A stretch of 64,000 bases of DNA from Candidatus Nitrosymbiomonas proteolyticus. GTDB lineage: Bacteria; Armatimonadota; Fimbriimonadia; Fimbriimonadales; Fimbriimonadaceae. Below the pieces are notes generated by a model. The model saw only the letters and a list, made by a program, of their open reading frames with translations. It ran no database searches and was not told the origin of the DNA. The position numbers and the translations under genes were made by a program. Shown piece by piece: positions 17,000 to 18,851 of the stretch. The number at the start of each line of letters is the position of its first letter. Position 1 is the stretch's first letter. The stretch is taken from contig AP021858.1 of NCBI GenBank assembly GCA_017347465.1, positions 2,560,472 to 2,624,471 of the forward strand. The letters run 5' to 3'.

Positions 17000-17028
17000 T
17001 TGACGTGAATTTCTGTCTACTATATAGT
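17000..17028 (+). promoter_or_regulatory. sigma70-type promoter of the HTH-TPR-TPR-PilZ operon
   Basis: TTGACG (17000-17005), a 17-bp spacer and TATAGT (17023-17028): near-consensus -35 and -10 boxes with ideal spacing. Transcription should start near 17035, about 29 nt before the ATG at 17064. The -10 box is embedded in the palindrome at 17015-17032. Confidence 0.75.
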
Positions 17029-17032
17029 AGAC
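17015..17032. promoter_or_regulatory. operator 1, perfect 18-bp palindrome over the -10 box
   Basis: GTCTACTATATAGTAGAC reads the same on both strands over 18 bp. It covers the -10 box of the promoter, so a bound protein would block RNA polymerase. Confidence 0.7.
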
Positions 17033-17039
17033 ATATAGT

Positions 17040-17051
17040 TACTATATAGTA
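17040..17051. promoter_or_regulatory. operator 2, second copy of the palindrome core
   Basis: TACTATATAGTA repeats the core of operator 1. The two centres are 22 bp apart, about two helical turns, so dimers could bind on the same face of the DNA. It lies just downstream of the predicted transcription start. Confidence 0.65.
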
Positions 17052-17063
17052 GAGGACCACGCC

Positions 17064-17564: not shown

Positions 17565-18851
17565 ATGAGCATGGTGATTTGCAGCCACTGTCAGACGGCT
17601 AACAGCTTGGATTCCCACTTTTGCAGGCAGTGCGGCAAGGAGGTCCCGGAGGCTGAGCGCCAGCAAGCGCAAGCGAAGCTCGCCGAGTTGATTTCGGAGG
17701 GGTATAAGGCTTTCAGCGAGGGGCGAACGGACGAAGCGCTCCTGATTTCGGAGAACGCCCTTGGCTCGGAGCCTTCGAACGCGAACGCGCTCTCGCTTAA
17801 GGGGATGTGTTTCGAGCGTAACAAGCGGTATGCGGAGGCGCTCGAGTGCTTTGAGCAGGTCGTCCGGCAGAACCCCGATTCCGCGCTCGACCGCATCAAA
17901 GTCACGCACCTTCGCAACACGATTTCCGCCAAGTTGGTGGAGGAGCCGCAAGCTCCCGACAAGCGACGGATTCTGCTGGCCTCGATCTCCGCGACGGTCC
18001 TTGTCGTCGCAAGCGGAATCGCGATCGGCGGATTTGCCAATTGGGGCGACCCGGATGCAGGCAAGCGGACGGCAGAACTCAGTAAGCCCCAGCCCAACCC
18101 GTTCGACCTCGATTCAAGGCTTGCGGCCGGGGGCGGCGCTTCGACTTCCAATTCCGGCGAAAGCCCGGCGGCCCAACCCCAAGGCGGCTCAGGTTCAGGG
18201 AGCGAAGCGACGGGAAGCGCGCTTCCGCCTTCGGGCAGGCAGGTTCCGGGAATCAGCGGCTCGCGGACTCCACCTTGGCAGCCCCCCGAACTGGGCGCGG
18301 GGGTCGTCGTTCGGCCGGAGGGCGCGATTCCCGGTGGATCGGATTCGGGCGCAGCGACAGGAGGCGGATCGGGGACTTTACCGAACGTCGGAGGCAGCAC
18401 AGGCGGCAACGCGGGATCGAACCGCGGGCCCGACTCGCTCGATCCGGGTTTCGGCGCTCAATCGCCGCCAGATACGGGCATTATCGACATTCGGGTGAGC
18501 AAGCCGGACATAACCGGGGGCGGGCAATCGGTCGACCCCCAGACGAGCCGGAATCAAGCGGAGGCGCTGCTGCGGACCGCGCGCGATTTGTTCCTTGCCG
18601 GCAAGTTCGCGGACGCCGCAAGAACCTACGAAGCGGCTCTTCGCGCTGGATCGGACCCCGCGTCGACGAACCAGCGACTTGCCCAATGTTACGCGAAGCT
18701 GGGAAGGAAATCCGACGCCCTCAACGCCTACACAAAGGCGATCGCATCGTATGAAAGCCAGATTGCGAACGGTACGGGCAACGCGTCGGTGTTGAAGGCC
18801 TCGTTGGATGCCTGCAAGCAGTCGTTGCTGGTGCTGCGTGGCGGAGGATAG
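17565..18851 (+). CDS. zinc-ribbon/TPR membrane protein
   Basis: About 428 residues. The order is a zinc ribbon (CSHC near residue 6 and CRQC near 20), a first TPR pair (about 30-105), a transmembrane helix (about 137-157), a long Gly/Ser/Pro-rich linker (about 165-335), and a C-terminal TPR region (about 340-420, with LFLAGKFADAARTYEAAL). The zinc ribbon and first TPRs should be cytoplasmic and the linker and last TPRs periplasmic, if the helix is a simple N-in anchor. I chose the ATG at 17565 because it puts the zinc ribbon right at the N-terminus; a TTG at 17535 is possible. The next gene starts 3 bp after the stop. The role is probably scaffolding. Confidence 0.7.
   Translation: MSMVICSHCQTANSLDSHFCRQCGKEVPEAERQQAQAKLAELISEGYKAFSEGRTDEALLISENALGSEPSNANALSLKGMCFERNKRYAEALECFEQVVRQNPDSALDRIKVTHLRNTISAKLVEEPQAPDKRRILLASISATVLVVASGIAIGGFANWGDPDAGKRTAELSKPQPNPFDLDSRLAAGGGASTSNSGESPAAQPQGGSGSGSEATGSALPPSGRQVPGISGSRTPPWQPPELGAGVVVRPEGAIPGGSDSGAATGGGSGTLPNVGGSTGGNAGSNRGPDSLDPGFGAQSPPDTGIIDIRVSKPDITGGGQSVDPQTSRNQAEALLRTARDLFLAGKFADAARTYEAALRAGSDPASTNQRLAQCYAKLGRKSDALNAYTKAIASYESQIANGTGNASVLKASLDACKQSLLVLRGGG

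Follow-up and report, generated by a model that had tools for sequence, protein, structure and literature searches.

The SOS box of Gram-positive bacteria is bound by LexA and has the consensus CGAAC-N4-GTTCG. The predicted operator described here resembles that box in that its two half-sites converge across a spacer of exactly 4 bp, and the LexA proteins read here are likewise canonical, with the cleavage motif and GDSM. Moreover, the Gram-positive box GAAC-N4-GTTC itself precedes homologues of the regulator gene studied here in other Armatimonadota. In the present case, however, the half-site is GTAGAC/GTATAC rather than GAAC, so that only the N4 geometry is common to both; the outer TA flanks are conserved, and the recognition helix reads SLRGVTVHL instead of SSSSTVHAHL. 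A second point of comparison is Xpf of PBSX, an SOS-induced phage sigma-like activator. Like Xpf, the product of the gene examined here is a small sigma-like regulator, predicted to be induced by damage. Unlike the xpf gene, its gene is chromosomal and stands alone in many lineages of the phylum.

LexA motifs vary widely, and 17 have been counted (main text of PMC8565304). In the Balneolaeota, the LexA regulon is described as containing LexA, RecA, translesion polymerases, a helicase and a radical SAM protein, and its phylum-specific motif was obtained, as here, by comparative genomics; unlike the motif reported here, it is a direct repeat, TTACACATATTTTWTACATA, which was discovered in lexA promoters and tested in vitro (main text of PMC7739468). 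The Bacteroidetes are described as non-canonical, with new palindromes before genes such as imuA-imuB-dnaE2, recA and splB (main text of PMC8565304). That case resembles the present one in the occurrence of new palindromes at SOS-type genes, but the regulator is reportedly not a LexA homologue, the motifs are CTAA-N5-TTAG and GGA-N5-TCC, and binding was tested (same source). The SOS regulons presented in the main texts of both reports include imuB-dnaE2, splB or radical SAM genes, and the word "Armatimonad" is absent from these texts. Our searches of open-licence literature turned up no published SOS box of the Armatimonadota.

The window, a stretch of 64,000 nucleotides from Candidatus Nitrosymbiomonas proteolyticus, contains on its forward strand a gene (P0001, 17064..17519) for a 151-aa sigma-70-region-4-like regulator, as judged from Pfam, PHROG and AlphaFold. 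The Pfam model Sigma70_r4_2 matched the protein with an E value of 2e-4, below the cut-off. When the protein was tested as a sigma-70 factor with E values up to 10, Pfam returned two region 4 models only, both below their cut-offs, and no region 2. The profile phrog_3512, named "sigma factor", matched all 32 family members examined at E ≤ 0.1, with a value of 2.8e-6 for the protein itself. The AlphaFold model is helical (mean pLDDT 80.5, pTM 0.53); a fold search of the PDB gave no match at E ≤ 0.001, and the hits, of which the best reached 0.07, were mostly sigma region 4 domains. The family shares a conserved tail, PYRGL..VYR.E..R. An identical protein is encoded in CP054189.1 and a relative with 46% identity in an Armatimonadetes bacterium. 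Downstream lies a zinc-ribbon/TPR gene (17565..18851, forward strand; Pfam), which is a frequent neighbour within the organism's own family and stands outside the conserved unit in the 43 orthologue neighbourhoods read by eye. Since the neighbours vary between families, the regulator gene is the likely target of the operator.

The regulator gene is preceded by a sigma-70 type promoter on the forward strand, read by eye as TTGACG (17000-17005), a 17-bp spacer and TATAGT (17023-17028). The initial annotation had drawn attention to two palindromes over this promoter, GTCTACTATATAGTAGAC at 17015-17032 and its core TACTATATAGTA again at 17040-17051, with core centres 22 bp apart, and both were found as claimed. 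As had been proposed, the -10 hexamer falls within the first and the start region within the second, and the two core copies (17018-17029 and 17040-17051) are 22 bp apart. The window contains two matches at up to two mismatches, compared with 0.05 expected; none of 100 shuffles yielded two such matches, and the two promoter copies were the sole matches at up to one mismatch in the whole genome (2,809,316 bases). Within each palindrome, the halves diverge around a gap of 6 bp (GTCTAC-N6-GTAGAC), whereas halves taken from both together build a third dyad that the initial annotation had missed, TATAGTAGACATATAGTTACTATA at 17023-17046, whose centre (17034.5) lies midway and whose halves converge, as in the conserved form GTAGAC-N4-GTCTAC.

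It is this third dyad that is conserved. A homologue search found the regulator gene in 43 of the 61 genomes of the order, including the present one, and a matrix was trained on the upstream regions of these orthologues. The aligned dyad was present in 42 of the 43 promoters, with leave-one-out scores of 14.0-34.8; the sole miss (L023) scored -6.8. Among 10,753 random 230-bp windows, a background that includes some true sites, the mean was -10.0 and the 99th percentile 5.3. The core consensus computed from the orthologue promoters is TAGTA(G/T)AC-N4-GT(C/A)TACTA, and the longer form is TATAGTA(G/T)ACATATGT(C/A)TACTAT. In 26 of the 42 orthologues, a TTGAC is located no more than 60 bp 5' of the centre of the box. 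The copy at 17023..17046 (forward strand), which we predict to be a LexA-type operator and call the main box, is the best match of the window (26.1) and overlaps the -10 of the promoter; its left half is canonical and its right half is degenerate, with three of six core bases. The second best match of the window (12.1) is a possible weak box at 17001..17024 on the same strand, with a good right half, GTCTAC, and a poor left half, which by eye is lost in the congener; the third best scored only 0.1. A sequence-only covariance model built from 41 of the 42 operators (the one omitted being an identical duplicate) gave the main box a low score (13.4 bits, E 0.42). At E ≤ 10, this model matched two places only in the organism's own genome, namely the main box and a site at a DUF3276 gene.

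The first of the twin palindromes (17015..17032), which encloses the -10, is composed of the right half of the weak box and the left half of the main box. The core of the second (17040..17051) consists of the right half of the main box together with some of an isolated outer half-site, GTAGAG (17048-17053). An unknown repressor that reads both TACTATATAGTA palindromes themselves, as two dimers, had been suggested. The preservation of both copies 22 bp apart in a congener, with one change in one copy, even though the flanks have diverged by eye and the regulator is only 62% identical, speaks for such a repressor. Yet the twin layout (up to two mismatches) occurs in only 2 of the 43 orthologue promoters, our own and that of this single congener, where the first palindrome has its only, altered, copy; the single central dyad occurs in 42. 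In addition, the rest of the genome contains no copy with one mismatch or fewer, and boxes or half-boxes in a 22-bp register yield the same layout. We consider the two-dimer reading highly improbable, and the exact twin palindrome was dropped as a conserved motif. The 22-bp spacing holds in another sense, since the weaker box lies exactly 22 bp 5' of the main box; as a spacing of twin TACTATATAGTA palindromes it did not stand. The more general proposal, that the promoter of the HTH gene is covered by the operator of a repressor, is supported, with LexA as the likely repressor. That no known repressor consensus had come to mind was fair, because our searches of open-licence literature found no such consensus in print, although the Gram-positive LexA box has this geometry.

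LexA was found in 59 of the 61 genomes of the order, including the present one, and scored over the cut-off in 58. The AAG/VAG cleavage motif and GDSM were present in all 28 LexA proteins read. The recognition helix SLRGVTVHL of these proteins is unusual; it starts with S-L-R-G in 27 of the 28 and with S-V-R-G in the remaining one. A small genome without lexA (G029) has neither the regulator gene nor a box among the matches listed. The covariance model found matches at E ≤ 1 in at least 56 of the 61 genomes, and two genomes with LexA (G002 and G022) have no box among the matches listed at that threshold. The lexA promoters themselves are peculiar. In a set of 48 (loci L134-L163 and L196-L215), from which two contig-edge loci (L153 and L155) were left out because LexA was not at the expected place, 44 contain a GTAGAC half-site, compared with 6.9% of shuffles; a full N4 box (score of at least 12) is present in five, the other 43 fall below 12, and the organism's own lexA promoter has no full box. 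A half-box, TTGACA(G)GTAGACAAA, is conserved behind the lexA -35, with GTAGAC no more than 5 bp past TTGAC in 30 of the 48, and a GTCTAC-like partner is found 18 bp beyond it in 14 of the 48, a spacing unlike that of the N4 box. This half-site layout may reflect weak autoregulation of lexA.

The box also occurs at genes of the SOS type. Of 59 recA genes, 30 were read, including three with uncertain starts (L166, L175 and L179), and 18 of these promoters scored at least 12 against 0.22 expected; the organism's own recA promoter has no box (-8.2). We also read 41 further sites, none of them before the regulator gene, which were our own pick from the upper part of the matches listed. Fifteen are followed by genes for Y-family polymerases (ImuB-like, seven), SPL-like radical-SAM proteins (six), a DnaE-type polymerase (one) and RecG (one). 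Twelve of these 15 were submitted to Pfam and all 12 agreed, the remaining three being assigned by resemblance; four radical-SAM proteins were scanned, and one of them exceeded the cut-off of the SPL model itself. The other 26 sites precede unfamiliar or unrelated genes, or none: seven stand before members of one family, two before phage head-protease genes and 17 make up the rest, and one of the 41 sites (L126) has no ORF. ImuB-like genes are also preceded by weaker sites, both in the organism's own genome and in the congener, where a RecQ-like helicase gene has such a site too.

A box-preceded family with the pattern MAFNV..YLI.VRGG..YLPV was seen at L098, L106, L110, L115, L117, L123 and L124. 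Its sole member scanned (L110) had no Pfam match and matched only PHROGs of unknown function, and the family is a candidate new SOS gene. At six loci (L048, L099, L101, L105, L113 and L221), the start ATG lies inside the box (ATGTCTACT, encoding M-S-T; ATGCAC at L221), a few bases past the -10. These genes possibly produce leaderless mRNAs.

The organism's own genome has operator-like sites in front of the genes for an ImuB-like polymerase, a DUF3276/PUR-like protein and a NusA-like protein, and in front of a phage-head gene cluster. They stem from a pattern scan with TAGTANACNNNNGTNTACTA at three mismatches that found 17 places, compared with 50 for the reversed control, and therefore most of these places are noise. 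Loci were assigned to 15 of the 17. Four score at least 16: the DUF3276 site (26.3), the main box (26.1) and the sites upstream of the NusA-like (18.5) and ImuB-like (16.8) genes. A site scoring 13.0 sits within open frames and looks coding, and the place at the capsid operon, to which no locus had been assigned, scored 15.5. The box at the DUF3276/PUR-like gene lies at its start codon (L048:1501-1520; C1:1183498), and an FtsZ-like ORF, oriented divergently to this gene, starts about 165 bp from it; the FtsZ-like and NusA-like assignments were made by eye. The phage-head genes form a short run (L194:128-3813; C1:2686127-2689812) with the operator-like site between the -35 and the -10. The PHROGs identify a head maturation protease, a virion structural protein and a major head protein, with a 140-aa ORF that had no match. 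By eye, the run lies between a transporter gene and a glycogen-synthase-like gene, and no tail or terminase gene was noticed. Head-protease genes with an SOS box also occur at L099 and L100. It is possible that the run is a domesticated, damage-induced capsid cluster.

The regulator could instead bind the operator through its own sigma-region-4-like HTH. Its fold is of a DNA-binding type, and a box before its gene in nearly every orthologue promoter is typical of an autoregulator. The distribution of the box argues against this explanation. Among the 18 genomes of the order in which the regulator was not hit, at least 15 have box-model matches, although a more sensitive profile of the regulator matches weakly in some of these genomes (E about 1e-5 to 1e-3), and we provisionally took these matches for other sigma-type proteins. 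Some of these boxes precede ImuB-like or radical-SAM genes (G004, G033, G028, G007 and G014), and the box is also found at recA. We therefore regard autoregulation as quite unlikely and LexA as the preferred reader of the box, a choice on which the comparison across the phylum also bears.

A profile search for the regulator in 201 genomes of the phylum gave a match at E ≤ 0.001 in 177, many of the weak ones probably being other sigma proteins. LexA was then sought in 28 genomes outside the order, its recognition helix was read, and the promoter of the regulator homologue was scored against both types of box. All seven genomes with only the SLRG helix have a GTAGAC/GTATAC-N4 box (scores 16.7-27.3), and none of the seven has a GAAC box within two mismatches. 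Six of the seven genomes with only the Bacillus-like helix (SSSSTVHAHL) have (C)GAAC-N4-GTTC(G) with no more than one mismatch, and the seventh (G218) has neither type. Thus, none of the 14 genomes with a single LexA type shows a crossed pairing of helix and box. Fisher's test gave 0.0006 for seven versus six, a value that overstates independence because six of the seven SLRG-only genomes belong to one genus. Eleven genomes contain both LexA types, and their regulator promoters carry the GTAGAC type in seven and the GAAC type in four. Each of these genomes (G160, G182, G065, G103, G150, G166, G172, G187, G196, G204 and G224) has at least two LexA paralogues, one with the Bacillus-like helix and one with the SLRG helix; four paralogues (L301, L304, L310 and L314) that did not fit the helix pattern were left out. 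In the remaining genomes, G071 has a different LexA and no box, G130 has no box and no LexA was found in it, and G155, in which no LexA was found, has a GAAC box with one mismatch, a degree of resemblance reached by 1.0% of shuffled 300-mers. The regulator gene thus stays under SOS-type control, and its box follows the LexA type that is present.

This change of box with the LexA helix also speaks against autoregulation. It bears as well on the idea that the dyad is a by-product of the -10, whether as a hairpin of RNA or DNA or as a promoter element that no protein reads. The -10 hexamer does lie inside the first palindrome, and perfect palindromes can in general fold. Nevertheless, box-like sites occur where the -10 is elsewhere (the organism's own capsid operon, by eye, and recA promoters), and in other lineages the dyad becomes GAAC-N4-GTTC. 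A structural or reader-less origin is scarcely credible to us.

We put the probability at about 90% that a LexA operator of new specificity represses an SOS-induced, stand-alone sigma-region-4-like regulator, a reading drawn from sequence comparison. Computation established the box, its conservation, its regulon and the way it covaries with the LexA helix. Several observations count against this reading: the degenerate right half and low covariance-model score of the main box, the small number of full boxes at lexA, the boxless recA promoter of the organism itself and the boxless orthologue promoter L023, the 26 sites before unfamiliar or unrelated genes, the LexA-bearing genomes G002 and G022, and G218 with neither type of box. 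The steps of binding, repression and induction, the help of the outer half-sites and the role of the regulator are extrapolated from the established behaviour of LexA. A LexA dimer with the helix SLRGVTVHL, as carried by part of the Armatimonadota, would occupy the TAGTAGAC-N4-GTCTACTA box over the -10 and the start, where it would block initiation by RNA polymerase. Upon DNA damage, the RecA filament would stimulate LexA self-cleavage and the promoter of the regulator gene would be released. This gene would then be expressed at the same time as those for error-prone polymerases and for repair. The product would act as a second-layer regulator, perhaps by competing for RNA polymerase or by redirecting it. 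In the organism's own genus, extra flanking half-sites with a period of 22 bp probably aid a box with a degenerate right half.

Armatimonadota of quite different lineages appear to keep the regulator gene under damage control. A more tentative scenario, whose odds fall somewhat short of even, is that LexA was duplicated in the phylum and one copy switched from GAAC-N4-GTTC to GTAGAC-N4-GTCTAC through the change of SSSSTVHAHL to SLRGVTVHL, with the spacing unchanged. Genomes with both copies would then be living intermediates, and the regulator would have been SOS-controlled throughout as a core second-tier damage switch, perhaps for the SOS-boxed phage-head cluster. The predicted operator provides a little-studied phylum with a readable DNA-damage regulon and adds a LexA specificity with its matching recognition helix. 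The genomes that hold both LexA types allow a direct test of how LexA can acquire a new site and yet keep its regulon. The results also point to a damage-induced sigma-like regulator that annotation would hardly call an SOS gene.
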